A DNA stretch of 64,000 nt. It comes from Pseudanabaena sp. PCC 7367. Lineage in GTDB: Bacteria; Cyanobacteriota; Cyanobacteriia; Pseudanabaenales; Pseudanabaenaceae. Below the pieces are notes generated by a model that saw only the letters and a list, made by a program, of their open reading frames with translations, had not been told where the DNA came from and searched no databases. Each line of letters opens with the position of its first letter. The stretch's first letter is position 1. The stretch lies in assembly GCF_000317065.1 (NCBI RefSeq), contig NC_019701.1:1054001-1118000 (forward strand). Reading direction: 5' to 3'. The position numbers and the translations under genes are program-made. Shown here piece after piece: positions 11,643-30,088 of this stretch.

Positions 11643-14600
11643 TTACCGCATACCTACTTGAGGGGCGATCGCCAATGTAAACCAAAAGGTCGTACCCTGT
11701 CCCGCTTCGTTGGCAACGCCAATTTGCCCCCCGTGGGCAGAAATGATCTGGCGGCACAAATATAAACTAAGACTAATGTTGGTGGAATATTTAGAGCGAT
11801 CGGTTTTGGCATAACGCTGAAATAATTTGCCACAATCGGCCATGCCCAGGCCATTATCCTTGATCTCGCAACGTAGCATTGCACCCTGCTCAGTTTCGAT
11901 CGGTTGAGCATCCAGGGTTAGCTCCATCCCAGGTGGATTATGCTTAAGTGAATTGGTAATCAAATTTTCATACACCCGCACAATTTGTCCCATATCCGCA
12001 GCCACACTGGGCAGGTCATCGCTAATCAGGTTATTCAGCTTGGCCTGGTTTTTGCTCAGCAGCGGCTCCAAATCAGCCAGCACCGCCTTGACCAAACAAG
12101 CAATCCCCACTTTGCCGCTCTTTAGTGCCACATTACCGGCTTCCAGGGCATGGGCATCGAGCAATAGGTTCAGCATTTCCAATTGGCGATCGCTACTTTG
12201 CACCATCCGATCGAGAATTTTCAGCGGCAACAAAAGATGGGTGGGGGTTTTGCTAACTGGTTTTGACTCGGTAGGGGATTGAGGTGGCGGTTGAATTGAA
12301 GTTTGGTTTAGAGTGCCCTGGGCTTGATTAACCTGATTAGTGGTGACATTAACGCTGGGCGCAATAGGAACACAACTTTCAGTGCCTTTTTTAATCAAAT
12401 TACGCAGCAACAATAAATTGCCCATAATTGGCGTGCGCAGGTCGTGGGAGACCGCATGGATAAAAAAGTCTTTTACTTCGCTCAATTCTTGGAGTTCGCG
12501 GTAGCGTTGTTCTAGCTCCTCGGTGCGTTCCTGTACCTGTTGTTCTAGGTTGGCATTAAGATCTTGCACCTGGGCATAGAGTTCGGCCTGTTGGATGGCG
12601 ATCGCTACCTGGGTAGCCAACTTTTCGAGAAAATTGACTTCAAATGTATGCCAATGCCGAGTACCAGTACATTGATGTACCCCCAGGATGCCCATCAGTC
12701 GATCGCCCAACAAAATTGGTACAGTTAGCGCCGCTTTAACTTTACTGCGACGGGCAATTTTAGTGCGATTTGGGGATAGGCTTACCTGCGTCAGATCGTC
12801 AATTATCTCCGGCTTGCCACTGCGGAACATAACTTCTACTTCTTTGGTGAGGGCATCATCGGCTACCCAACCCAAGACTGAAGGCCATTCTAAGTCCACC
12901 GACTCAGCAATCACATGGCTTTGATTTTCACCGTTGGCATAGGCAATAAACACCCGATCGGCAGTCATCATCTGGCGTACTTCAGTAACCGCGGTGTGGA
13001 GGATTTGATCCAGGTTCAGGGAGCGGCGAATTTTGAGGGCAATTTCACCGAGCAAACGATCGCGCTCGATCGCCTCCTTGAGACGGGCTTCGGCCAGTTT
13101 GCGATCGGTAATATCATTGGTCATGGCCAGAATGCAAGACTCGCCATTGAATTCGATCAGTTCAGCAGAAAAAAGAGCCAGCATTGGCTCCCCCGACTTG
13201 CGGCAAAATTCATATTCAACATTGCGAACAAAGCCTTTTTCTTGGAGGGTTTGGCGTAGTTGCAATGCTTCGGCAGGATTGTGCCAAATTCCTAGCTCGG
13301 TGGCAGTATGGTTGATTACTTCATCGCGTTGGTAGTTGGTGGTATCCAGAAATGCCTGATTAATCTCAATAAATTTGCCTTCATTAAAGGTGGAAATGGA
13401 GCAAGAGTCAGGGTTAGAACGAAAGGCCTTGGAGAACATTTCTTCCGACAATCGCAGCGCCCGCTCGGCTTCGACCCGCTCGGTGATATCGCGCACAATC
13501 ACAATTACCTGCTCGTCTTGAAATGGCAGCATCCTGGCTTCAAATATTCTGTCGCAGCCCTGGATCGGCAGGTTATATTCATAGCTAACCAGGGCTTGGG
13601 TGGCGATCGTTTCTTGAATAGCCTGGTGAGTTTTCTTGGCGATCTGGGGTGGTAAAAATTCTTCGATTTGGCGATGCATGAATTGCTCTGGTTTCACAAA
13701 TAGCTCCGAAGTGCTGCCAGAGTGATATTCCAGGACTTGACCCGCTGCATCGAGGCGAAATTGCAAATCGGGAAAGGCTTCAAAGATCGCCCGCAGATTG
13801 GAGGTGGTTTGCAGCAGTTGTTCTTCAATCCGTTTGCGATCGCTGATGTCGTTGATAATTGCCAACATGCAATCGCTATTATGCAGGAAAATTATTTCCG
13901 CTGAAATGAGGCAAGCAATTCGATCGCCTGATTTGGTACATAGTTTCGATTCAAAATTTTTGACTGTTCCTTGGGTTTGGAGTTGGTGACGGAGGCGATC
14001 GCCATCTTCAGGATCAACCCAAATGCCCATGCCAACAAGACTCTGATTAACTAACTGATCGCAGCGATAGCCCAACATTTTGGCTGTGGTATCGTTGACT
14101 TCCAGGATTTTCCCCTCCGTCAGGGTCGCAATCACGATCAGGTTGGGGCTGGAATGGAATGATTTAGAAAATTTTTCCTCCGATCGGCGCAAGGCAATCT
14201 CTGCCTGTTTGCGTTCGGTAATGTCGCGCACAATTACCAATACTTCATCCACACCACTAACCACTACCCTTGCTTCATATTCATGGATGGAGTTGTGTTT
14301 TTCGAGCTGATATTCAAATATCTGGGTTTTACCAGTTTGAAAAGCCCGCTCAATTTGCTCCATGCGGCGATCGGCAATTTCCTGGGGCAAGACATCATGG
14401 ACTTTGTGTCCCAGCATTTTACTTGGGGAGATCGCAAAGTCAGAATCGCGGTGCGCCTTAAAATCCAAATAAGTACCATCGCGGCTAATCCTGAACATCA
14501 AATCGGGGATTGCATCCAATAGGGCTAGGGTTCTGGCCTCATTACGCTGGAGCGCCTCTTGCACCCTTCTTTGGGCGGTGGTCTCACGCACAATCGAGGT

Positions 14601-15182
14601 GACCTCATCGCTGCCGCTGGCAACCAGGCGAGCTTCCCAACAACGCAGTTGGCCATTGATTTCCAGTTCATACTCAAAGGTTTGGGTATCACCACTGGCG
14701 ATCGCTAGCTCTAGCATTTCAATGAAGCGATCGGCTAAATGTTCTGGTAGCACCGCATAGATATTGCTGCCAATCAATTGATCTGCCGGTAATGCCAAGT
14801 CGCTTTCTTGTTTAGCCAGCACGTCGGTATAAATACCCTGGCGGTTGAATCGAAATATGAGATCGGGAATTGCATTTAAAAGAGCCCTGCTGCGATGCTG
14901 AGCTTGCTCATTACAATCGGGCTTTTCGCCATTTTGACCACTGTATTCGAGGCGGGTATTATTACTGTAGATGCCAGCGGTTCCAGTTCTGAGGGAGCCA
15001 TATTGATTGGGATCAGCTAAGTGATCTGGTGAATTATCAGGTTCGCAGGAAAGTTGATCGATCGCAGATTGTTCTAGAATTTGCTTGACCTTTTCAAATG
15101 CTGCATCATTAATGCAACAATCTCTGATCGCTTCTAGATGGTGATTTAGAACCCGATTCATCTTTTCCCTCAGATTACTCAT
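11643..15182 (-). CDS. Multi-PAS/GAF sensor histidine kinase
   Basis: 1179 residues with no membrane helix, so probably a cytoplasmic sensor. Five PAS domains start near residues 97, 215, 335, 460 and 583. PAS 1, 2 and 4 share an AIPDLxFR-type opening; 3 and 5 share KxFxSxPxxxxI, so two types are interleaved. A GAF domain follows at about 720-870, then a coiled coil, the HisKA H-box (VSHDLRTPIMGN near 925) and a HATPase domain with NLITNSLKHNPPG and DNGLGMAD. The loop between the two HisKA helices carries an unusual Ser/Thr/Pro/Gln-rich insert of about 45 residues. There is no receiver domain and no response regulator beside it. The signal sensed is unknown; GAF can bind bilins or nucleotides, but no chromophore-binding cysteine could be assigned. 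Confidence 0.9.
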   Translation of the reverse strand: MSNLREKMNRVLNHHLEAIRDCCINDAAFEKVKQILEQSAIDQLSCEPDNSPDHLADPNQYGSLRTGTAGIYSNNTRLEYSGQNGEKPDCNEQAQHRSRALLNAIPDLIFRFNRQGIYTDVLAKQESDLALPADQLIGSNIYAVLPEHLADRFIEMLELAIASGDTQTFEYELEINGQLRCWEARLVASGSDEVTSIVRETTAQRRVQEALQRNEARTLALLDAIPDLMFRISRDGTYLDFKAHRDSDFAISPSKMLGHKVHDVLPQEIADRRMEQIERAFQTGKTQIFEYQLEKHNSIHEYEARVVVSGVDEVLVIVRDITERKQAEIALRRSEEKFSKSFHSSPNLIVIATLTEGKILEVNDTTAKMLGYRCDQLVNQSLVGMGIWVDPEDGDRLRHQLQTQGTVKNFESKLCTKSGDRIACLISAEIIFLHNSDCMLAIINDISDRKRIEEQLLQTTSNLRAIFEAFPDLQFRLDAAGQVLEYHSGSTSELFVKPEQFMHRQIEEFLPPQIAKKTHQAIQETIATQALVSYEYNLPIQGCDRIFEARMLPFQDEQVIVIVRDITERVEAERALRLSEEMFSKAFRSNPDSCSISTFNEGKFIEINQAFLDTTNYQRDEVINHTATELGIWHNPAEALQLRQTLQEKGFVRNVEYEFCRKSGEPMLALFSAELIEFNGESCILAMTNDITDRKLAEARLKEAIERDRLLGEIALKIRRSLNLDQILHTAVTEVRQMMTADRVFIAYANGENQSHVIAESVDLEWPSVLGWVADDALTKEVEVMFRSGKPEIIDDLTQVSLSPNRTKIARRSKVKAALTVPILLGDRLMGILGVHQCTGTRHWHTFEVNFLEKLATQVAIAIQQAELYAQVQDLNANLEQQVQERTEELEQRYRELQELSEVKDFFIHAVSHDLRTPIMGNLLLLRNLIKKGTESCVPIAPSVNVTTNQVNQAQGTLNQTSIQPPPQSPTESKPVSKTPTHLLLPLKILDRMVQSSDRQLEMLNLLLDAHALEAGNVALKSGKVGIACLVKAVLADLEPLLSKNQAKLNNLISDDLPSVAADMGQIVRVYENLITNSLKHNPPGMELTLDAQPIETEQGAMLRCEIKDNGLGMADCGKLFQRYAKTDRSKYSTNISLSLYLCRQIISAHGGQIGVANEAGQGTTFWFTLAIAPQVGMR

Positions 15183-17670: not shown

Positions 17671-20271
17671 TTACTCAAACTCCGCCGCATTGGTTTGATC
17701 TGGTTTACGAACCAACAGCAAGCCCTGGCTATCTTTGAGTTGAAAGCGACGTAAGCTCTTGGCGGTATTTTCTACCTCCAGCCCAGGCGAAGCGATCGCC
17801 AATTGCCATTTGTTCAGGTCAAGCTGTAGCCAATCGCCCAGGGTAATTGTCGTTTCTGCGCCGCCCATATGCGCTACCATCGCCACCTTATCGGCCGCAT
17901 CATCGGGGTTGCTGCGGACACCATAAAAAATGGTGCGATCGTCGCCACTAATTTTGTTGAAGCGATCGAGATTGGATAGGTTATTTAGCAGCCAGGGGCG
18001 TTGATGACGGAACTGTCGTAGTTGCAGGTTGAACTCAGCCTGGATCGGCTCAGCCCTGTCAAGGTAGCGGTGGACATTGCAAACTTCGTAGCAATCCTCC
18101 ATAAACTTGATTGAAAACTCCTTGAGCTGAGTGATATCTAGTTCTTTCAGAAACTTGATCATGCCGGGACGATTGAGTTCTTTGAGGGAGTCGATCTCAC
18201 AGGTGGCCACCTCATCACCAAGGCAGCGTTGACAGGCTCGCACCACCTCGTTGAGATTATAATCACTCTCAGTCATGGCATCCTGGAGCGATTGGCCAAA
18301 TTCCCGCAATTGATCTAAATTGGCAAAACCCAGTTCCTTGAGCTGACTAAAAATATGATCGCGCTGGTAAAGTTCTTCGTCTACCTGCCAATATAAAAAG
18401 CCCATTTCCTCAGAAACCACCTTGACCCCATAGCGTTCGTCAGTATTGCGGAAAAACATCCAGGGGGCATGCATGGTGGCATTGATAAAGTCCATCGGCA
18501 AACCTGGACTAAAGCCATAGACCCAGAGGGTGACAGCATGATTATCGTAGGCATTATCGAGGACTTCGGGTAGGGTCTCGCCCAGATTCCAATTAATTTC
18601 CTTTTTAGGATCGACCTGACTACCACGCCTAATGGTGTCATGATTGGCACAGCCAGTAATCCAGCGATCGCCTTGATACATTACCTCGCATACCCGTCGC
18701 CACTTACTTTCCCAAAAACCAGCTAAGGTGGGCGTATTGTGGGCAAAAATCAAGGGCCCCCATTGAAACGCATCGGGCATTAATTCAATCATGTCCCGAT
18801 AGGTGGAAGTCTCTTCCCAGCCTTCTTCCGGCCAAGGGCGACCATCTTCAAAAACGGTGAACATCAAGCGCTCATAGCCACAGATGTTTTGCACCACATC
18901 CGCCATTGCCAGTAAATAAACATTATCTTGCTCGACTCGACCGGTGAGGGGATTGAAAAAGCGGAAATCCTGCGCGCCATCAATCCGAATGCCATCACAG
19001 CCAGTATTGATTTTGCGGCGTTGCATTTCTAGCAGAATGGCGCGGACAGTTGGTTGCTGGTGGTTGAGATCCTGGCCATACATATTTGGCCCCTTTAGGA
19101 ATTGACGATTGATCAACTCTTCGGCTTGATTGTCCGCATGACCATAGACAATGTCATAAATTAATTGCACTGGCCCAGTGGCAAAGTTGTGGAGCGTGGC
19201 GATGAGATCAATCAACTCATCGGGGCGCAGGGTTGCCATCACGGCCGGGTTGATCGCTGAAGCGGCTAAGCCAGGGATATCATAGCCCCAGTCCTCGGTA
19301 TTCGGTTTATATAACTTGAATTGAATTGTGGCCTCGCCTTCGGATACGCCCATTTCAGTCAGGGCAAAGAAGTTACTTTCCTGGGCATGTTCACTGCGGT
19401 ATTCGATCGTCGGTTCGATCGGCAATAGTTGCACCGCATCATAGCCAACGTAGTTTTGTTCCGCGGCAGTGAGCGGTTCACCAGCGGCCAACTTAGCGGA
19501 AATACCCTGAAATAGCTGGTTCAGACCTTCTAGCGATCCAGCTTCGGTGGCAGTACCTACATGGATTTGCAGAATGTTAACTGGAGCCGGTACACGCGGT
19601 AGTGTGACCTGAGTGGTGGCTGGACTGGATTTTGCCGTGCCCAAGGTAGCAGCAGCACTGATGTGAGTTTGCGATGGGGTTACTGGTTCTGATGGTGTGG
19701 ATTCTGATGCGGCGGGGACGATCGAGGTTTGGCGAAAATAATCCAAATCAGCCCGTTCTTGATGCATTGCCTCAATATCGTAGAGTTCAGCGGGGCCAAA
19801 TACACCATAGGGCAGGGAATAGGCAACCACATCCCTGATTGTGCGCAACGTGTCCATGTTGTCGAGATAGCGCAGCCAGTAGAATGATCCGGCTTGGTCT
19901 CTGCGGCCTGGTACGAGGCCATCAATTACGCCCCAGAGATATTCGCCCTGCTGGCGCAATCGCAGCCGTGAACAGACAAAGCTAGCTTCTTGTTCGATCG
20001 CCCGAAAGTCAATCTTACTGATCGGCGTGAGAATTTCTAAATAAATATCCCTGGGTAGCATTACATCTGCTAGCAGTTCCGGAGTCCAAAAGCCAATTTC
20101 AGTTTTACCATCGGGGCGATAGTGAGCACCCAGCCTGGTTGCCAGCTTTTGCGCCTTTTCCAGATATGTAGCGTTCGATTGCTCAACCTCGGCTGCCCAA
20201 TCCAGTAATGCTTGGGTTTCCGCTTCGTCGAGAGCAATATTGCGGGATGCCTTGCTAACCAATGTAGTCAC
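17671..20271 (-). CDS. gghA: Glucosylglycerol hydrolase
   Basis: 866 residues, matching cyanobacterial GghA (slr1670 type), which hydrolyses glucosylglycerol to glucose and glycerol when salt stress falls. The GH13-like catalytic core is visible: GCDGIRIDGAQDF (nucleophile Asp near 427), FTVFEDGRPWPEEG (acid/base Glu near 473) and GCANHDTIRRG (third Asp near 544). A Ser/Thr/Pro-rich linker lies at about 185-225, before the barrel. There is no signal peptide, so it is cytoplasmic. The start is GTG at 20271 with no obvious ribosome site; no better start was seen. It is transcribed divergently from the HAD-ggpS operon across a 680-bp gap, so synthesis and breakdown of the osmolyte could be controlled from one intergenic region. 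Assignment rests on overall sequence character and the GG neighbourhood. Confidence 0.88.
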   Translation of the reverse strand: MTTLVSKASRNIALDEAETQALLDWAAEVEQSNATYLEKAQKLATRLGAHYRPDGKTEIGFWTPELLADVMLPRDIYLEILTPISKIDFRAIEQEASFVCSRLRLRQQGEYLWGVIDGLVPGRRDQAGSFYWLRYLDNMDTLRTIRDVVAYSLPYGVFGPAELYDIEAMHQERADLDYFRQTSIVPAASESTPSEPVTPSQTHISAAATLGTAKSSPATTQVTLPRVPAPVNILQIHVGTATEAGSLEGLNQLFQGISAKLAAGEPLTAAEQNYVGYDAVQLLPIEPTIEYRSEHAQESNFFALTEMGVSEGEATIQFKLYKPNTEDWGYDIPGLAASAINPAVMATLRPDELIDLIATLHNFATGPVQLIYDIVYGHADNQAEELINRQFLKGPNMYGQDLNHQQPTVRAILLEMQRRKINTGCDGIRIDGAQDFRFFNPLTGRVEQDNVYLLAMADVVQNICGYERLMFTVFEDGRPWPEEGWEETSTYRDMIELMPDAFQWGPLIFAHNTPTLAGFWESKWRRVCEVMYQGDRWITGCANHDTIRRGSQVDPKKEINWNLGETLPEVLDNAYDNHAVTLWVYGFSPGLPMDFINATMHAPWMFFRNTDERYGVKVVSEEMGFLYWQVDEELYQRDHIFSQLKELGFANLDQLREFGQSLQDAMTESDYNLNEVVRACQRCLGDEVATCEIDSLKELNRPGMIKFLKELDITQLKEFSIKFMEDCYEVCNVHRYLDRAEPIQAEFNLQLRQFRHQRPWLLNNLSNLDRFNKISGDDRTIFYGVRSNPDDAADKVAMVAHMGGAETTITLGDWLQLDLNKWQLAIASPGLEVENTAKSLRRFQLKDSQGLLLVRKPDQTNAAEFE

Positions 20272-20951: not shown

Positions 20952-21680
20952 ATGAACTCTGACTATTCCCTAATTCTCGCTACAGACCTAGATGGTACTT
21001 TCTTAGGTGGTTCGGCTGAACAGAAAGCTGAATTTTACCAATATGTGCAGTCCAACCGCGATCGGATATTACTGGTATTTGTAACGGGTCGTGACCTCGA
21101 TTTTATTGATGGCCTGTGCCAAGACCCAAGTTTTCCAGCGCCTGACTACATTATTGGCGATGTTGGCACCACGATCGTAAATTGGCCAAGTCGCCAGCCC
21201 CTTGATGCGGTGCAAGACTGGGTCGCTAATACCTGGGGTCAGGCTAACGATCGAGTTAAAGAAATGATGGCGAATGAGCCTGGGATTGAGTTGCAACCAG
21301 TAATGGGGCCATATCGAGTTTCTTACTTTTACAAGCCCGACCAATTGCAACAAAGTACAGTCCAGAAAGTGATTGATGCTGGATTTGATTGCATTCTGTC
21401 GGCTGACCTGTACCTGGATGTAATGCCCAAGGGAATTTCCAAAGGGCCCACCCTACTCAGGTTTATTGAAGCTTTGTCTCTGAGTGCTGAAGATGTAATT
21501 CCCGCTGGCGATACCCTCAATGATTTGTCGCTGTTTGAAACTGGCCTAAAGGGGATCGCGGTAGGTAATGCTGAACCCAAGCTAGTCGATCGAATTAAGG
21601 ATATGGAGAATGTCTATCATAGCTCTCATCCTGGTGTGGCGGGGATTTGGGATGGTTTGAAAACCTACGGCAAACATTAG
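20952..21680 (+). CDS. HAD-IIB phosphatase of sucrose-phosphatase type, probable GG-phosphate phosphatase
   Basis: 242 residues with all HAD motifs: ATDLDGTF (Asp 12 nucleophile, Asp 14), VFVTGRDLDF (motif II Thr), the Lys in MPKGISKGPTLLRF, and PAGDTLNDLSLF (motif IV). The fold and length match the sucrose-phosphate phosphatase (S6PP) group. It is followed 86 bp later by ggpS, and no sucrose-phosphate synthase is nearby, so the likely substrate is glucosylglycerol-phosphate. It is unrelated in sequence to StpA/GgpP, the usual cyanobacterial enzyme for that step. Bacterial GgpPS fusion enzymes also carry a HAD phosphatase in front of the synthase, which supports the idea. Sucrose-phosphate remains an alternative substrate. 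Confidence 0.75.
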   Translation: MNSDYSLILATDLDGTFLGGSAEQKAEFYQYVQSNRDRILLVFVTGRDLDFIDGLCQDPSFPAPDYIIGDVGTTIVNWPSRQPLDAVQDWVANTWGQANDRVKEMMANEPGIELQPVMGPYRVSYFYKPDQLQQSTVQKVIDAGFDCILSADLYLDVMPKGISKGPTLLRFIEALSLSAEDVIPAGDTLNDLSLFETGLKGIAVGNAEPKLVDRIKDMENVYHSSHPGVAGIWDGLKTYGKH

Positions 21681-21766: not shown

Positions 21767-23311
21767 ATGAAGTCCTCATTGGTAATTCTCTACCATCGGC
21801 AACCCTATGACGAAGTGATCAATGAGCATGGCATGGTGCAGTTCCGGGAAAAGAAAAGTCCCAATGGGATTGTGCCTACACTCAAAAGTTTCTTTGCCAG
21901 CGTCGATCGCGGTACCTGGATCGCCTGGAAGGAGGTGACCCAAGAACAAAAAAGCGGCTTTGAAGAGCGAGTAGTGGTTGAGCCAGATGCTAACTATAGT
22001 GTGAGGCGATTGCCACTCACAGCCGAGCAAGTGAAGCATTTTTATCACATTACGTCTAAAGAAGCCTTCTGGCCAATCTTGCACTCCTTTCCCTATCACT
22101 TTACATCTGAGTCATCGGATTGGGAAAATTTCAAGATTATTAACTTCCTATTTGCTAGTGCCGCCTGCGAGGAAGCTGCTGATGATGCGGTGATCTGGGT
22201 ACATGACTACAATTTGTGGTTAGCGCCGCTCTTTATTAGGCAGCAAAAGCCCGATGCCAGGATCGCCTTTTTCCATCACACCCCCTTCCCTGCACCGGAT
22301 ATTTTCAATATTTTGCCCTGGCGAGAATCGATCATTGATAGTCTCCTCTGCTGTGATATCTGTGGTTTCCATATACCTCGCTATGCGGAAAACTTTGTTG
22401 CCACGGCTCGCAGTCTCAGAGAAATTGAAATATTGAAGCGCGAGCCAGTACCTGCATATATGAGCAAGCGGGGGATGGCTTTGTCAGAGCCAGAAGTAAC
22501 CTTGCAAATTAAGCATCAAGATCAGGTTGTGAACGTGGACTCGGTGCCAGTGGGGACTAATCCGCAGCAAATTTTCACCCGCCTTCAACAGCAAGAAGCC
22601 CAGGAGCAAATTGAACGGATCAAGCAAGATTATGATGGTCAAAAATTGATTATTTCTGCCGGTCGGATTGATTATGTTAAGGGCAATCGGGAGTTACTAG
22701 AATGCTACGAGCGCCTATTAGATCGCCGCCCTGATCTGCACTCAAAGGTTTCTTTAATTCTGATTTGTGCTAGCCCAGCCCAGGGGATGCAGATTTATAA
22801 AACAGCGCAAGAGCAGATTGAACAACTGGTTGGTAAGATCAATGGCCGCTTTAACCAGCTCGATTGGAGCCCGATCAAGCTCTTTACCAAGCCAGTACCG
22901 TTTGCAGAGTTAGTCTGTTTATTTAAGGTGGCAGACATCTGCTGGACTACGCCGCTGCGTGATGGTTTGAATCTGGTCTGCAAGGAATATGTGGTAGCCC
23001 ACGAAGGACAAGATGGGGTGTTAATTCTGTCTGAGTTTGTCGGTGCAGCGGTTGAGCTACCCGATGCCCTGCTCACCAATACCTATTCCACCGATAACAT
23101 GGATCAAACCCTCGAAATTGCGCTATCAATGCCAGTAGCAGAGCAACAGGCACGGATGACCAAGATGTACGACACTGTCACCAAATATGATGTGAAGCAT
23201 TGGGCCGATCATTTGTTTGACATGTTCAAGCAAATTATGCCCGAGATCCAGGCTTGTTCATTACCTGGCTCTGGATCTGGACATGATGAAAAAGAAGCAA
23301 TTCTCTCGTAA
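21767..23311 (+). CDS. ggpS: Glucosylglycerol-phosphate synthase
   Basis: 514 residues, GT20 family (trehalose-phosphate-synthase fold), slightly longer than typical GgpS of about 500. It joins the glucosyl group of ADP-glucose to glycerol-3-phosphate, the committed step of GG synthesis. Visible signatures are IWVHDYNLWLAPLF, FFHHTPFPAPDIFNILPW, SAGRIDYVKGN with the Arg and Lys that bind the sugar nucleotide, and TTPLRDGLNLVCKEYV. The N-terminus (SSLVILYHRQPYDE and KSPNGIVPTLKSFF) is that of GgpS rather than OtsA. TAGGAG 9 bases before ATG 21767 is a good ribosome site. It probably shares a transcript with the phosphatase gene. In known systems GgpS is inhibited by nucleic acid binding and released by salt. 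Confidence 0.93.
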   Translation: MKSSLVILYHRQPYDEVINEHGMVQFREKKSPNGIVPTLKSFFASVDRGTWIAWKEVTQEQKSGFEERVVVEPDANYSVRRLPLTAEQVKHFYHITSKEAFWPILHSFPYHFTSESSDWENFKIINFLFASAACEEAADDAVIWVHDYNLWLAPLFIRQQKPDARIAFFHHTPFPAPDIFNILPWRESIIDSLLCCDICGFHIPRYAENFVATARSLREIEILKREPVPAYMSKRGMALSEPEVTLQIKHQDQVVNVDSVPVGTNPQQIFTRLQQQEAQEQIERIKQDYDGQKLIISAGRIDYVKGNRELLECYERLLDRRPDLHSKVSLILICASPAQGMQIYKTAQEQIEQLVGKINGRFNQLDWSPIKLFTKPVPFAELVCLFKVADICWTTPLRDGLNLVCKEYVVAHEGQDGVLILSEFVGAAVELPDALLTNTYSTDNMDQTLEIALSMPVAEQQARMTKMYDTVTKYDVKHWADHLFDMFKQIMPEIQACSLPGSGSGHDEKEAILS

Positions 23312-23522: not shown

Positions 23523-25217
23523 ATGCGGGATTTTCAAGCAATCCAAGGTCAGACTTATGATCTGATTGTGATTGGTGGTGGAATTAATGGTGCAGCGGTG
23601 GCTAGGGATGCGGCTCTGCGTGGCCTGAAGCCAATTTTGATCGAGAAAGGTGACTTTAGCGGTGCTACCTCTAGCTGGTCAACGCGATTGGTGCATGGCG
23701 GGCTGCGCTATTTGGAATATTTTGAGTTTGCACTGGTGCGCGAATCCCTGCATGAGCGGGAAATTCTGCTAAGAACTGCGCCCCATTTGGTTCGGCCATT
23801 AATGTTAACCGTGCCGGTTTATGCGGGGCGATCGCGGCGATTTTGGAAAATCCGCGCCGGGATGCTGCTCTATGACATTTTTAGCTTTGATAAAACCCTG
23901 CCAGCCCACCGCATCTTACCTGGCCAAAAATTCAGACAATTGTTCCGCCATATGGACCCAGAGAACCTGGTGGGCGGGGCACAATATTATGATGCTCAGG
24001 CGGTCTATGCGGAGCGGATTTGCTTAGAGAATATATTATCGGCGCAGGCTGCTGGTGCGGTGGCGCTAAATTATGTGCAAGTTACTCAATTAGAGCGCAA
24101 CGATCGCCAGATTAGCAAAGTAGTCTGCCGCGATCGGATTACTAAAACTGAATTTGCGATCGATGTGAGCCCCAATGCCGTCGTAATCAATACCTCTGGC
24201 CCCTGGGTTGATCAGGTCTGTCAGCTTGGCCACAGGGGCGATCAAGATCAACCGATCGGCTCAACCAAGCGGATTGGTGGCACCAAAGGCAGTCATATTG
24301 TGGTCGATCGTTTTCCTGGCGCACCGGATAGTGCGTTGTATGTGGAGGCCAAGACCGATGGCCGGCCTTTCTTCATTGTGCCCTGGCTCAATCGGGTGCT
24401 AGTGGGGACTACGGATATTCCTTTTAATGGCAACTTAGAGGCGATCAAAGCCAGCAATGACGAAATCGATTATCTAATTACGGAAACCAATAACATTATT
24501 CCTTCGGCACAGCTAACCCGCCAGGATGTGAAGTTTACCTACTCTGGGGTGCGCCCATTGCCCAATGAGGAAGGTAAAAAGCCAGGTAGTATTACCCGCA
24601 AGCATATTCTGTACGATCATCGCCAGGAAGGGGTAGATAATATGATTTCACTGGTGGGTGGTAAGCTCACCACGTTCCGGCATGTGGGTGAAGAATTGGT
24701 GGATGCGGCCTATCGCAAAATGGGCAAAGCAGTACCTGCCTGTCCTACCCTGACCAAACCTTTACCAGGGGCGATCTTTCCCAATGATGAGCGGATTCAA
24801 AAAGCGGTGCAGGACTATCGCCACCAGTTACCGATCGCCACGATCGATCATCTGTTCAACATCTACGGTGCTAGGGCAATGGAAGTGCTAGCGCTCATCG
24901 ATCAAGAGCCCGAATTAGCCGAGCCCTTGGGCGATCGCCTGCCGGATATCAAAGCCCAGGTGTTGTTTGCAGTGGAAGCAGAAATGGCCCATACAATTAC
25001 CGATATTGTGCGCCGCCGCACCACGCTGGCAATGCAAGCCAACTATGGCCTGGATGTGCTGCCAGTAATTTCTGAGGTGCTGCAAAAATATTGCAATCGC
25101 CCTGAGCATAAATGCGATCGGGAAATAGAAGACTTTTACGAATATATGCGCGATAACTGTATTCCCGATTATCAACTAGAGCAACCAGAGTTAGCGCAAA
25201 AGTTCATGTTGACCTGA
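23523..25217 (+). CDS. glpD: FAD-dependent glycerol-3-phosphate dehydrogenase
   Basis: 564 residues. It oxidises glycerol-3-phosphate to DHAP, passing electrons to quinone at the membrane. The N-terminal dinucleotide fold is DLIVIGGGINGAAVARDAALRG (about 12-33), followed by TSSWSTRLVHGGLRYLE, a GlpD hallmark, and RPLPNEEGKKPGSITRKHIL in the substrate domain. The C-terminal cap domain (about 400-530) includes DIVRRRTTLAM. The start is ATG 23523, with GAGCTGAGG just upstream. In this cluster it would clear glycerol-3-phosphate derived from GG breakdown, opposing GpsA. A dyad lies 60 bp upstream, so it may have its own control. Confidence 0.94.
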   Translation: MRDFQAIQGQTYDLIVIGGGINGAAVARDAALRGLKPILIEKGDFSGATSSWSTRLVHGGLRYLEYFEFALVRESLHEREILLRTAPHLVRPLMLTVPVYAGRSRRFWKIRAGMLLYDIFSFDKTLPAHRILPGQKFRQLFRHMDPENLVGGAQYYDAQAVYAERICLENILSAQAAGAVALNYVQVTQLERNDRQISKVVCRDRITKTEFAIDVSPNAVVINTSGPWVDQVCQLGHRGDQDQPIGSTKRIGGTKGSHIVVDRFPGAPDSALYVEAKTDGRPFFIVPWLNRVLVGTTDIPFNGNLEAIKASNDEIDYLITETNNIIPSAQLTRQDVKFTYSGVRPLPNEEGKKPGSITRKHILYDHRQEGVDNMISLVGGKLTTFRHVGEELVDAAYRKMGKAVPACPTLTKPLPGAIFPNDERIQKAVQDYRHQLPIATIDHLFNIYGARAMEVLALIDQEPELAEPLGDRLPDIKAQVLFAVEAEMAHTITDIVRRRTTLAMQANYGLDVLPVISEVLQKYCNRPEHKCDREIEDFYEYMRDNCIPDYQLEQPELAQKFMLT

Positions 25218-25403: not shown

Positions 25404-26444
25404 ATGGTAAGTAACCTGACTCAATCACTAGCTACCTCCCAGGAGAAGGCTAGCAAAAATGATCAAGCTCAGTCGATTGCTGGAGACGGCAATAATAACT
25501 CGATTGCCCAAAAGCAGATCACGATTATCGGCGCAGGGGCATGGGGGAGTGCGCTGGCAGATCTGGCTCAACATAATAATCACAAAGTAAAACTGTGGTC
25601 ACGCAGCAGTGAAGAAACTTTGGCAGAGGCGATCGCAGATGCGGAAGTGATCCTGTCGGCGATCTCGATGAAAGGGGTAGCTGAAACTGTTGATAAACTC
25701 AAAGCGATCGGCATCCCCGCCCAAACAATTATTATTACGGCCACCAAGGGTCTAGATCCGGCTACTACCCGTACGCCTTCTAAAATTTGGCAAGCAGCTT
25801 TTCCCGATCATCCGGTAGTGGTTCTGTCCGGGCCGAATTTATCCAAAGAAATTGAACAGGGCTTGCCGGCGGCAACGGTGGTGGCTGGGATCGATGCAGT
25901 GGCCACAGAAACGGCACAGGTTATTTTTGCCTCCGATCGATTTCGGGTCTATACCAGTAATGACCCAATTGGCACTGAGCTAGGCGGTACGCTCAAGAAT
26001 GTAATTGCGATCGCCACTGGGGTTTGCGATGGCTTGAATTTGGGTACTAATGCTAAGTCGGCCTTAATTACCCGCGCTCTGCCGGAGATCATTCGGATTG
26101 GGAGCCAATTGGGAGCGCAGCCGGAAACATTTTTTGGCCTGTCGGGGATGGGCGATCTGCTGGCCACCTGTAGTAGTCCGCTTAGCCGGAATTATCGGGT
26201 TGGGTTTGGCTTGGCACAGGGCAAAAGCCTGGAGCAAATTTTGGCGGAAATTAAAAGCACCGCCGAGGGTGTAAATACCGCAAAAGTGCTGGTGCATCTG
26301 GCTAATAATGAAAGAATCCCGATCCCGATTTCCCGCCAGGTCTATCGCTTGCTGAAGGGTAAAATCACCCCCCAAGAGGCAGTTGAAACATTGATGGAAC
26401 GCGATCTCAAACCAGAATTCTGCGATCTGTTTGAGGAAGAGTAG
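25404..26444 (+). CDS. gpsA: NAD(P)-dependent glycerol-3-phosphate dehydrogenase
   Basis: 346 residues. It reduces DHAP to glycerol-3-phosphate, supplying both lipids and, here, GgpS. The Rossmann motif ITIIGAGAWGSALADLA begins only near residue 40; the first 36 residues are a polar Ser/Gln/Asn-rich extension not usual in GpsA. Other signatures are VVVLSGPNLSKEI, GTLKNVIAIATGVCDGL (catalytic Lys region), FGLSGMGDLLATCSSPLSRNYRVG and STAEGVNTAKV. Position inside the GG cluster implies a dedicated role in osmolyte synthesis; whether the chromosome has a second gpsA cannot be seen. The N-terminal extension could mean a downstream start, but no good ATG lies near residue 36. Confidence 0.93.
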   Translation: MVSNLTQSLATSQEKASKNDQAQSIAGDGNNNSIAQKQITIIGAGAWGSALADLAQHNNHKVKLWSRSSEETLAEAIADAEVILSAISMKGVAETVDKLKAIGIPAQTIIITATKGLDPATTRTPSKIWQAAFPDHPVVVLSGPNLSKEIEQGLPAATVVAGIDAVATETAQVIFASDRFRVYTSNDPIGTELGGTLKNVIAIATGVCDGLNLGTNAKSALITRALPEIIRIGSQLGAQPETFFGLSGMGDLLATCSSPLSRNYRVGFGLAQGKSLEQILAEIKSTAEGVNTAKVLVHLANNERIPIPISRQVYRLLKGKITPQEAVETLMERDLKPEFCDLFEEE

Positions 26445-26788: not shown

Positions 26789-28189
26789 ATGCCCAAAGAG
26801 CGCCTGAGTTTTTGGCAACTCTGGAATATGAGTTTTGGTTTTCTGGGAATCCAGTTTGGCTGGGGTTTGCAGATGGCCAACGTTAGCTCCATTTTTGAGT
26901 ACCTAGGAGCAGATGCCGACGAAATACCGATCCTCTGGTTAGCAGCACCGCTGACGGGGTTACTAGTACAGCCAATCATTGGCAAGATGAGTGATAATAC
27001 CTGGGGGCCGCTGGGCAGACGCAGACCATATTTTCTGGTGGGGGCAATCCTGGCTTCGATCGCCCTGGTGCTAATGCCGCGATCGTCAACTTTGTGGATG
27101 GCAGCCGGATTATTGTGGATTCTTGATACCTCCGCCAATGTCAGTATGGAGCCATTTCGGGCTTTTGTGGGCGATCTTCTCCCCCAAGAGCAACGTACCA
27201 AGGGGTTTGCAATGCAGAGCCTGCTAATTGGCCTAGGCACGGTTACGGCGGCCGCATTTCCCTGGTTTTTGAATAATATTGTTGGCATTTCCGGTGAAAC
27301 CTCGGCCAGCCATGCGATCCCCGCCACGATCGAAATTTCTTTCTATGTCGGTGCGGCGATGTTTTTGGGTACGGTGCTGTGGACAGTATTTACCACCAAA
27401 GAATACCCGCCGGAAGACATGGAGGCGTTTGAACAACAAAAACAAGAGCAGAGCGGTATTGGCGGTACTTTGCAGGAAATATATCAAGCGCTGCGGGAAA
27501 TGCCAGTCCGAATGAGGCGTTTGGCCTGGGTGCAGGTATTTACCTGGCTGGGGTTATATTGCTTCTTTTTATACTTTCCGCCCGCCGTGGCACGGAATAT
27601 TTTTGGCGCCACAAGCCAAACCTCGCCCCTCTACAGCGATGGGATCGAGTGGGCTGGGATTTGCATCGCGGTATATAACACAGTTTGCTTGATTTTCTCC
27701 CTGCTCCTGCCAGTGCTGGTCAAAGAGACTAATCGCAAAATTGCCCACATTATCTGCTTATTGTGTGGTGCAGTGGGTTTAATTTCGCTGATTTTTATTC
27801 ACGATCGCTACCTCCTACTTGTGCCCATGGTGGGAATTGGGATCGCCTGGTCGAGTATTCTGGCCTTGCCCTATGCGATGCTGGTGGGTGCGTTGCCGGA
27901 CGATCGCGGTGGCCTGTATATGGGTATTTTTAACTTTTTTATTGTGTTGCCGGAAGTATTTGTATCGCTGGGCTTGGGCTGGGTGATGCATAATTTCTTA
28001 GGTAACAATCGCCTCTATGCAGTAGTTCTGGGCGGCTTGTTTTTGATTGTGGCGGCGATCGCGGCGTTGCGGCTGGAAGTGGTGCCTTTTGCTGGCAATG
28101 ATCCCCTACAGCCTGGCATGATTGGTGCAGAGCAATTTACGGATGGGGATGCTGATGGCATAGAACAGGAACCCCAGTCGATCGCTTAA
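26789..28189 (+). CDS. MFS permease of the GPH/SLC45-like sugar carrier type
   Basis: 466 residues with about 12 membrane helices. The N-terminal half carries FGWGLQMANVSSIFEYLGA, PLTGLLVQPIIGKMSDNTW and GRRRPYFLVGAILA, the loop 2-3 signature of sucrose/maltose-type carriers (SLC45 and plant SUT relatives). A conserved Asp/Asn helix, LLWILDTSANVSMEPFRAFVGDLLP, follows. Known relatives move sucrose, maltose or similar disaccharides with protons. Sitting between gpsA and glpK, it is a good candidate for uptake, recapture or release of glucosylglycerol or sucrose. The Ggt ABC transporter that normally retrieves GG is not in the window. GGAGGTG lies directly before ATG 26789. Substrate assignment is inference. 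Confidence 0.85.
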   Translation: MPKERLSFWQLWNMSFGFLGIQFGWGLQMANVSSIFEYLGADADEIPILWLAAPLTGLLVQPIIGKMSDNTWGPLGRRRPYFLVGAILASIALVLMPRSSTLWMAAGLLWILDTSANVSMEPFRAFVGDLLPQEQRTKGFAMQSLLIGLGTVTAAAFPWFLNNIVGISGETSASHAIPATIEISFYVGAAMFLGTVLWTVFTTKEYPPEDMEAFEQQKQEQSGIGGTLQEIYQALREMPVRMRRLAWVQVFTWLGLYCFFLYFPPAVARNIFGATSQTSPLYSDGIEWAGICIAVYNTVCLIFSLLLPVLVKETNRKIAHIICLLCGAVGLISLIFIHDRYLLLVPMVGIGIAWSSILALPYAMLVGALPDDRGGLYMGIFNFFIVLPEVFVSLGLGWVMHNFLGNNRLYAVVLGGLFLIVAAIAALRLEVVPFAGNDPLQPGMIGAEQFTDGDADGIEQEPQSIA

Positions 28190-28576: not shown

Positions 28577-30088
28577 ATGACCGATCATAAATATGTATTA
28601 GCGCTTGACCTTGGTACTACGGGCAATCGCGCCATTTTGTTTGACAAAAACGGTAATGTGTTTGCTCAGGAATATAAGGAATTAACTCAACATTATCCAC
28701 AGCCCGGTTGGTTGGAGCATGACCCGATCGAGATCTGGCAAGGTGTGCTGCGTTGTATGCAAAGGGTGGTTAAAAATAATGGTGTTAACGCTGAGGAAAT
28801 CGCCGCGATCGGCCTGACCGTGCAGCGCGAAACCTGCTTACTGTGGGATAAAAATACTGGCGAGCCCCTGCATAATGCAATTGTCTGGCAAGATCGACGC
28901 ACCGCGCCCATGTGTAAAGAACTGGCAGCGGCGGGACATGCTGCTGATATCCGCGATCGCACTGGTCTGGTCTTAGACGCTTATTTTTCGGCTACCAAAC
29001 TGGCCTGGTTATTAAACTGGGTAAAAGAGCATAAACCGGAGGTCGATTTAGAGCAGGTGCAGGCAGGAACCGTTGATACCTGGGTGTTGTGGAATCTAAC
29101 CAAAGGAGTACATGCCACCGATCATAGTAATGCTAGCCGCACCATGCTGATGAATCTGGGAACAGAACAGTGGGATTATAGTTTGCTGGAGCTGTTTAAT
29201 ATTCCGCCTCGAATCATGCCTAAAATCCAGCCCAGTATGAGCTTGTTTGGCCAGATTGATGCGGAGTTTTTAGGTGCAGCGATCCCGGTTATGGCAATCT
29301 TTGGCGATCAACAGGCTTCACTGTTTGCCCACGGTGGCGATCAACCTGGCATGTTGAAATGCACCTATGGCACTGGCTGCTTTTTGATCTCGCAAATGGG
29401 GCATGAAATTGGTGGTAAATCCAGCCCTGAATTGCTGGCAACGGTGGCCTGGAGCCAGTCACAACCCGATGGCAGCATGAAAGTTAATTATGCAGTGGAA
29501 GGGGCAATGTTCACTACTGGTGCATGTATTCAATGGCTGCGGGATGGAATTCAGTTAATTAAATCTGCACCTGAGACCGAGGCAATGTGTAATCAGGTGG
29601 AAAGTACCAATGGGGTCTATTTTGTGCCCGCATTAAGTGGCCTTGGTGCGCCCCATTGGGATATGAATGCCCGTGGTGCTTTTTTGGGGATCACTGGCGG
29701 CGTAAAGCGAGAACACATGGTCAGGTCGGTGTTGGAGTCGATCGCCTACCAGGTGAAAGAGGTGGTTAACTCCATGAATAAAAACTCCAGTAGCCCAGTT
29801 TCCTATTTAAAAGTAGATGGTGGCGCAAGCCAGAATAATTTCTTGATGCAGTTCCAGGCTGATGCGCTGGGGATTCCGGTGGAGCGTCCGGTGATTCTGG
29901 ATGCCACGGCTCAGGGGGCGGCGTTTGGCGCTGGCTTAGCGGCTGGCTTTTGGGATAGCTACGCGGAGCTGATCAAGGCTAGAAAAGTCGATCGGGTGTT
30001 TGAACCGGGTGCAGGCCAAACCTATGTAGAGGCCAACTTCCCCACCTGGCAAAAGGCGGTGGCACGGGCTAAGAATTGGATTGAATAA
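28577..30088 (+). CDS. glpK: Glycerol kinase
   Basis: 503 residues, FGGY family, normal length. It phosphorylates glycerol with ATP. Signatures: ALDLGTTGNRAILFD at the start (phosphate-binding loop), HYPQPGWLEHDPIEIW, NAIVWQDRRTAPMC (glycerol-binding Trp-Gln-Asp-Arg), GDQQASLFAHGGDQPGMLKCTYGTG and VDGGASQNNFLMQFQAD. Glycerol released from GG by GghA is its expected substrate in this setting; its product feeds GlpD or GgpS. A rho-independent terminator follows about 65 bp after the stop, marking the end of the GG cluster. Confidence 0.95.
   Translation: MTDHKYVLALDLGTTGNRAILFDKNGNVFAQEYKELTQHYPQPGWLEHDPIEIWQGVLRCMQRVVKNNGVNAEEIAAIGLTVQRETCLLWDKNTGEPLHNAIVWQDRRTAPMCKELAAAGHAADIRDRTGLVLDAYFSATKLAWLLNWVKEHKPEVDLEQVQAGTVDTWVLWNLTKGVHATDHSNASRTMLMNLGTEQWDYSLLELFNIPPRIMPKIQPSMSLFGQIDAEFLGAAIPVMAIFGDQQASLFAHGGDQPGMLKCTYGTGCFLISQMGHEIGGKSSPELLATVAWSQSQPDGSMKVNYAVEGAMFTTGACIQWLRDGIQLIKSAPETEAMCNQVESTNGVYFVPALSGLGAPHWDMNARGAFLGITGGVKREHMVRSVLESIAYQVKEVVNSMNKNSSSPVSYLKVDGGASQNNFLMQFQADALGIPVERPVILDATAQGAAFGAGLAAGFWDSYAELIKARKVDRVFEPGAGQTYVEANFPTWQKAVARAKNWIE

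Follow-up and report, generated by a model that had tools for sequence, protein, structure and literature searches.

The window, a 64,000-nucleotide stretch of Pseudanabaena sp. PCC 7367 DNA, carries immediately upstream of ggpS a gene (20952–21680, + strand) for a HAD-IIB phosphatase of an S6PP-like subfamily. We propose that this putative glucosylglycerol-3-phosphate phosphatase carries out step two in the making of glucosylglycerol (GG) as a non-orthologous stand-in for StpA, a reading drawn from sequence comparison to which we give a probability of roughly 85%. The replacement of StpA, already suggested in an earlier note on this DNA, is supported because the genome has no StpA, canonical sucrose-phosphate phosphatase (SPP) or sucrose-phosphate synthase (SPS) over cut-off, because the HAD and StpA are exactly complementary among 52 ggpS-bearing genomes (the HAD adjoins ggpS in 3/3 of those lacking StpA), and because the HAD-ggpS linkage is conserved in two phyla.

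The HAD open reading frame starts with ATG and encodes 242 residues. It matches the Pfam family S6PP (PF05116) at 156.9–157.5 bits (cut-off 20.3) over residues 6–240, which is nearly its full length, and the StpA family PF09506 is absent among its Pfam matches. Against the curated SPP model TIGR01485 it reaches 74.6 bits (equivalog cut-off 183.65), and against TIGR02471, the phosphatase-like domain of SPS, 88.3 bits (cut-off 209.75); since both scores fall below the cut-offs, the protein is by its profile matches S6PP-like, yet no canonical SPP. The earlier description of the gene ahead of ggpS as S6PP-like rather than of the StpA type therefore holds (PF05116 157.5 bits, no PF09506, a gap of 86 bp). 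Alignment over the four HAD motifs revealed an intact active site, with D12, D14, T45, K164, D187 and D191 all kept. We take D12 as the nucleophile, D14 as the acid/base, T45 and K164 as the further motif residues, and D187/D191 as the holders of Mg2+. An AlphaFold2 model, built from a five-sequence alignment and of moderate quality (mean pLDDT 76.6, pTM 0.75), is closest in the PDB to Synechocystis SPP (1s2o; Foldseek E 8.5e-18, TM 0.78, 21% identity), followed by other HAD-like hydrolases, with mannosyl-3-phosphoglycerate phosphatases lower down. A PDB search by sequence likewise put 1s2o on top (4.4e-14). The modelled fold is consistent with a phosphatase acting on a phosphorylated glycoside and does not by itself tell the substrate.

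The downstream ggpS (21767–23311, +) encodes a GT20-type glucosylglycerol-phosphate synthase (TIGR02398, 746.9 bits; curated cut-off 569) and starts 86 bp past the HAD stop codon. The scan listed no terminator-like site between the two genes, which may be co-transcribed; promoter and terminator scans gave fewer matches than in shuffled sequence and are uninformative on operon structure. Divergent from the HAD gene lies a gene for a glucosylglycerol hydrolase-like protein (17671–20271, −; PF14872 GHL5, 1472.7 bits), presumably GghA. This name fits because the Fig. 6 legend of PMC6753628 shows ggpS and gghA co-located, together with glpD, glpK and gpsA. In the window, profile scans placed glpD, for an FAD-type glycerol-3-phosphate dehydrogenase, at 23523–25217 (+) and gpsA, for an NAD(P)H glycerol-3-phosphate dehydrogenase that would provide the glycerol 3-phosphate acceptor, at 25404–26444 (+), and the glycerol kinase gene glpK follows at 28577–30088 (+; TIGR01311, 646.9 bits, cut-off 590). 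Between them, an MFS transporter resembling GPH sucrose symporters (26789–28189, +; TIGR01301, 133.6 bits, under the cut-off of 511) is a possible glucosylglycerol carrier. A gene 65% identical to it lies in the GG cluster of the related genome G585 (L116:10062-11447). In addition, an open reading frame of 1179 residues near the GG cluster (11643–15182) appears, by eye, to combine several sensor repeats of the PAS type with a GAF-like segment and an end like that of histidine kinases.

In the proposed pathway, GpsA would form glycerol 3-phosphate, and GgpS would couple it to ADP-glucose to yield GG-3-phosphate. The HAD-IIB enzyme would then take off the phosphate by the aspartyl-phosphate mechanism usual in the HAD superfamily, using D12, D14, T45, K164 and the Mg2+ bound at D187/D191. 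It would thus fill the place of StpA, a protein of another family with HAD-like motifs.

The genome of the strain itself comprises two contigs and is listed as 100% complete. The search for an stpA gene elsewhere in this complete genome, which the earlier note had called for, found no PF09506 match, and this miss is informative because the same model detects StpA in 75 of 386 cyanobacterial genomes. The observation that no SPS gene adjoins the pair was confirmed among the window neighbours scanned and extends to the whole genome, where no SPS exceeds the cut-off (best match 211.7 bits against 576). The best SPS match is an 826-residue frame (L081, G000:C2:435921-437393), perhaps a sucrose synthase. 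PF05116 matches the window protein and two weak homologues (41.8 and 28.4 bits), and the genome holds no canonical SPP over cut-off; with neither SPS nor canonical SPP, therefore, no sucrose-6-phosphate route is visible.

Counting TIGR02398 matches at E 1e-180 or better, ggpS occurs in 52 of the 386 genomes. StpA accompanies it in 49, including G215, where StpA is in two pieces, one with a stop. The remaining three are the present genome (G000), G027 and G159, of the families f1, f8 and f12; all are listed as 99–100% complete, and nothing in them reaches E 0.001 with PF09506. The HAD lies immediately upstream of ggpS in each of these three StpA-less ggpS genomes of the 386, compared to 6 of the 49 StpA-bearing genomes (G118, G002, G066, G207, G135 and G298) in which it lies beside ggpS (Fisher p = 0.0038, uncorrected for kinship). 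By the complementarity argument the HAD is not needed in these six, since StpA is present there. Among the stretches compared, most of them short, StpA lies near ggpS only in G119. In G298, an IscB RNA-guided endonuclease gene (L095:9638-10909; NF040563, 478.8 bits) splits the HAD-ggpS pair, which is contiguous in three congeners. A search of 39 relatives found no ggpS in the 23 other genomes of the strain's own family and found two more ggpS genomes, G585 and G591, both with StpA and no HAD near ggpS.

Membership of the HAD family was set at over 160 bits to the window protein. Twenty-four genomes contain a member at 161.9 bits or more, and the next match, at only 81.4 bits, is a G027 protein that is a canonical SPP. 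Half of them (12/24) lack ggpS, with no TIGR02398 match at E 1e-20. Three others, G181, G330 and G370 of family f20, combine ggpS, StpA and a distant HAD located elsewhere. The f20 clade (L104-L107, L109) is distant from the window protein (36% and 39% identity in the two members measured) and unlinked to ggpS; in L104, the HAD gene sits between an HrpB-type helicase gene and an exonuclease VII gene. In G103 (L094:7782-14779, matched by L110 of G048), a HAD 61% identical to the window protein is clustered with an alpha-amylase-like enzyme, a transketolase-like protein, a PLOD-type glycosyltransferase and a canonical SPP. In G262 (L096:10439-12214), G157 (L099:8384-10240) and G255 (L100:8577-10298), all of one genus, the HAD is followed directly by gpsA with no ggpS relative, an arrangement that could be either a GG operon remnant or a glycerol-forming pair.

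Scanning GTDB genomes added four loci. Okeania hirsuta has the order HAD-ggpS-gpsA and a Microcoleaceae MAG the order HAD-ggpS-glpD-gpsA; Okeania SIO2C9 has the HAD and gpsA together with the remnant of a deleted ggpS, and Okeania SIO3B5 has the HAD without ggpS. No StpA was found in these four assemblies, whose completeness is not given. The HAD is thus kept in two of three Okeania genomes despite a lost or remnant ggpS, and therefore the family can act elsewhere or the loss is recent. In the Okeania MAG loci concerned, L016:1347-1806 and L014:6001-6738, ggpS was lost by internal deletion or wholly and the HAD frame is still open. Among the three Okeania HADs, dN/dS is 0.10 between SIO3B5 and O. 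hirsuta, whereas SIO2C9 gives 0.19 with either of them; this hints at slight relaxation, on too few changes to carry weight.

A plasmid search with ggpS returned 14 records. Five have 44–55% identity, three of them from Dinoroseobacter shibae; the other nine have 30–32%, and those annotated are named trehalose-phosphate synthases. All three distinct GgpS-like plasmid records examined carry an unbroken gpsA-HAD-ggpS: Tistrella mobilis pTM3, Dinoroseobacter shibae pDSHI02 and Falsirhodobacter algicola, with HADs 54%, 40% and 43% identical to the window protein, respectively.

Phylogenetic analysis was based on 35 HAD rows rooted on SPP; left out of 39 were the two weak homologues of the own genome, the Okeania SIO2C9 sequence and that of G048, which is identical to G103. 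The HAD family splits at 100/99 from SPP and from the C-terminal domain of an SPS. A single 21-row clade (98/96) takes in all 14 HADs that adjoin ggpS; it is a clade whose deepest branches, a Rhodobacterales pair and Tistrella, are ggpS-linked, whereas seven unlinked rows are nested inside it and the f20 clade lies outside. Because of these linked deepest branches and nested unlinked rows, ggpS linkage looks ancestral and the unlinked HADs look like losses, the f20 clade excepted. HAD-adjacency requires six changes on a 59-row ggpS tree, compared to a shuffled mean of 12.8. Six residues (G15, D70, T74, R122, G144 and L189) are fixed in the ggpS-linked HADs and differ from six SPPs, with the catalytic residues all kept. 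When four fused HADs (see below) were added, they grouped as a separate clade, basal in the HAD family (100/98) and still apart from SPP (100/99). Of the comparisons proposed in the earlier note, the tree set the HAD apart from SPP, and profile comparison (hhalign, 1.7%) set it apart from StpA. The trees did not recover a single clade uniting every GT20-linked HAD and the unlinked ones derived from them to the exclusion of f20, but such a clade was not rejected either (AU p 0.072).

Two identities for the protein were discarded along the way: that of a canonical SPP, by the TIGR01485 score under cut-off and the 100/99 tree split, and that of StpA, by the missing PF09506 match and profile relation. 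A looser version of the former, an SPP lying beside ggpS by chance, would agree with S6PP as the top Pfam family, with 1s2o as the closest solved structure, and with a canonical SPP over cut-off in only one (G027) of the 12 genomes searched in which the HAD lies close to ggpS, be it intact or a remnant. We regard it as very improbable, given a protein that stays under both sucrose cut-offs, belongs to a clade of its own with fixed sequence differences, occurs in a genome with no SPS over cut-off and is linked to ggpS. Moreover, G103 and G027 have canonical SPPs besides the HAD; in G027, whose canonical SPP scores 302 bits, the HAD is therefore not needed for that function. Least credible is an StpA diverged past the Pfam model with the HAD as an accessory enzyme; six genomes do carry both enzymes, but full-length StpA matches in the other ggpS genomes score about 490 bits or more, and StpA would have to have slipped below E 0.001 in three nearly or fully complete genomes.

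HAD-IIB phosphatases are often promiscuous, and the window protein might instead be a general sugar-phosphate or glycerol-3-phosphate phosphatase with its main role elsewhere, another phosphatase completing GG. The HAD-gpsA pairs without ggpS, the 12 genomes with a family member and no ggpS relative, which also speak against a role in GG synthesis only, and the retention in Okeania after ggpS loss all point this way. However, the unlinked HADs, f20 excepted, nest in the ggpS-linked clade as expected from later ggpS loss, the HAD is strictly present where StpA is missing, and hydrolysis of glycerol 3-phosphate would presumably drain the substrate of GgpS. We consider this explanation unlikely, if slightly less so than that of a chance SPP, and retain a GG-phosphate phosphatase as the reading for the window protein. 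That every family member is such an enzyme was dropped, as members without ggpS exist. These members, including the HAD-gpsA pairs that three genomes of a single genus carry, show that the family taken together either reaches beyond GG synthesis or has persisted after its loss.

The earlier note had also suggested that the pair is the unfused form of the arrangement in bacterial GgpPS fusions. Searched with the Tistrella HAD, plasmids gave 11 records, five of them from actinomycetes, and including Streptomyces NBC_01006 and a Sulfitobacter record (27.6%). All four actinomycete records examined of the five (loci L136-L139) encode in a single frame a HAD followed by a GT20-like part. The Kitasatospora (744 residues) and Streptomyces NBC_01001 (703 residues) proteins, as annotated, match both PF05116 and PF00982; those of Streptomyces BHT-5-2 and Embleya are single open reading frames of uncertain start, and the ggpS query matches the second part of the BHT-5-2 protein. 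For the two GT20 parts scanned, the best NCBIfam model is TIGR02398 at 323.7 and 291.6 bits, under the cut-off of 569, and their product is possibly another phosphorylated glycoside. GgpPS itself was not found in viral contigs, and plasmids yielded only unfused alphaproteobacterial pairs and these actinomycete fusions; a search of 217 Nostocaceae-type genomes (the G019 family) gave none at E 1e-125, with a model that matched no control either. The suggestion thus finds indirect support: related phosphatases are fused to GT20 in the same order, but the two scanned GT20 parts fall below the GgpS cut-off. Through the actinomycete fusions, the window pair may indirectly be seen as the unfused counterpart of the fusion arrangement. 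More tentatively, and with the odds against it, the HAD-GgpS module might be the older GG unit, which alphaproteobacteria share and to which the actinomycete fusions are related, with StpA a later cyanobacterial replacement; G118, four genomes of genus g3 and G135, which carry both enzymes, would then be caught mid-replacement.

Passages in PMC6753628 report separate ggpS and ggpP genes in all GG-accumulating cyanobacteria investigated, and fusions in some heterotrophs; PMC10873239 repeats the rule where it treats this point, with Nostoc ellipsosporum NOK as the exception. According to its Fig. 6 legend, the compatible-solute survey in PMC6753628 sought ggpP by BLAST with Synechocystis GgpP. 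The evolutionary analysis in PMC11505929 scores the GG pathway as partial in 10 strains, and PMC3826126 describes hexosylglycerol from strains in which no GG genes are annotated. In the literature searched, with most subscription papers outside its scope, no description of an S6PP-like GG-phosphate phosphatase beside ggpS stood out. If such an enzyme performs the GG-phosphate step, some of the partial-pathway strains may in fact make GG with a complete pathway, which could alter how ancestral GG synthesis and habitat are reconstructed; if the HAD-GgpS module is indeed the older unit, surveys relying on StpA only would miscall some GG producers. For GG engineering, the HAD also offers a phosphatase encoded by a short gene of its own, and together with StpA it presents a clear-cut example of non-orthologous gene displacement that can be tested directly.

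Compared to known systems, the window protein shares with SPP (TIGR01485; 1s2o) the fold and HAD-IIB type, SPP being its best PDB match by both sequence and structure; however, it is only 26–30% identical to the four SPPs measured, differs at the fixed residues and forms a separate clade. With StpA/GgpP (PF09506) of Synechocystis it would share the step after GgpS, and all 12 StpA sequences compared keep the HAD-like motifs DLDGV and GDT unchanged, whereas StpA has about 420 residues against 242, and hhalign profile comparison finds no relation (probability 1.7%). The actinomycete fusions on Kitasatospora, Streptomyces and Embleya plasmids resemble the window pair in placing the HAD before GT20, and their N-terminal phosphatase has G15, D70, R122, G144 and L189 of the window family; they differ in their 31–34% identity to the window HAD and in the two scanned GT20 parts under the GgpS cut-off. 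Finally, in the GgpPS fusions of Azotobacter, Marinobacter and Stenotrophomonas, as outlined in a passage of PMC10873239, the phosphatase likewise precedes the GT20 synthase, whereas in the window the two are encoded by separate genes.
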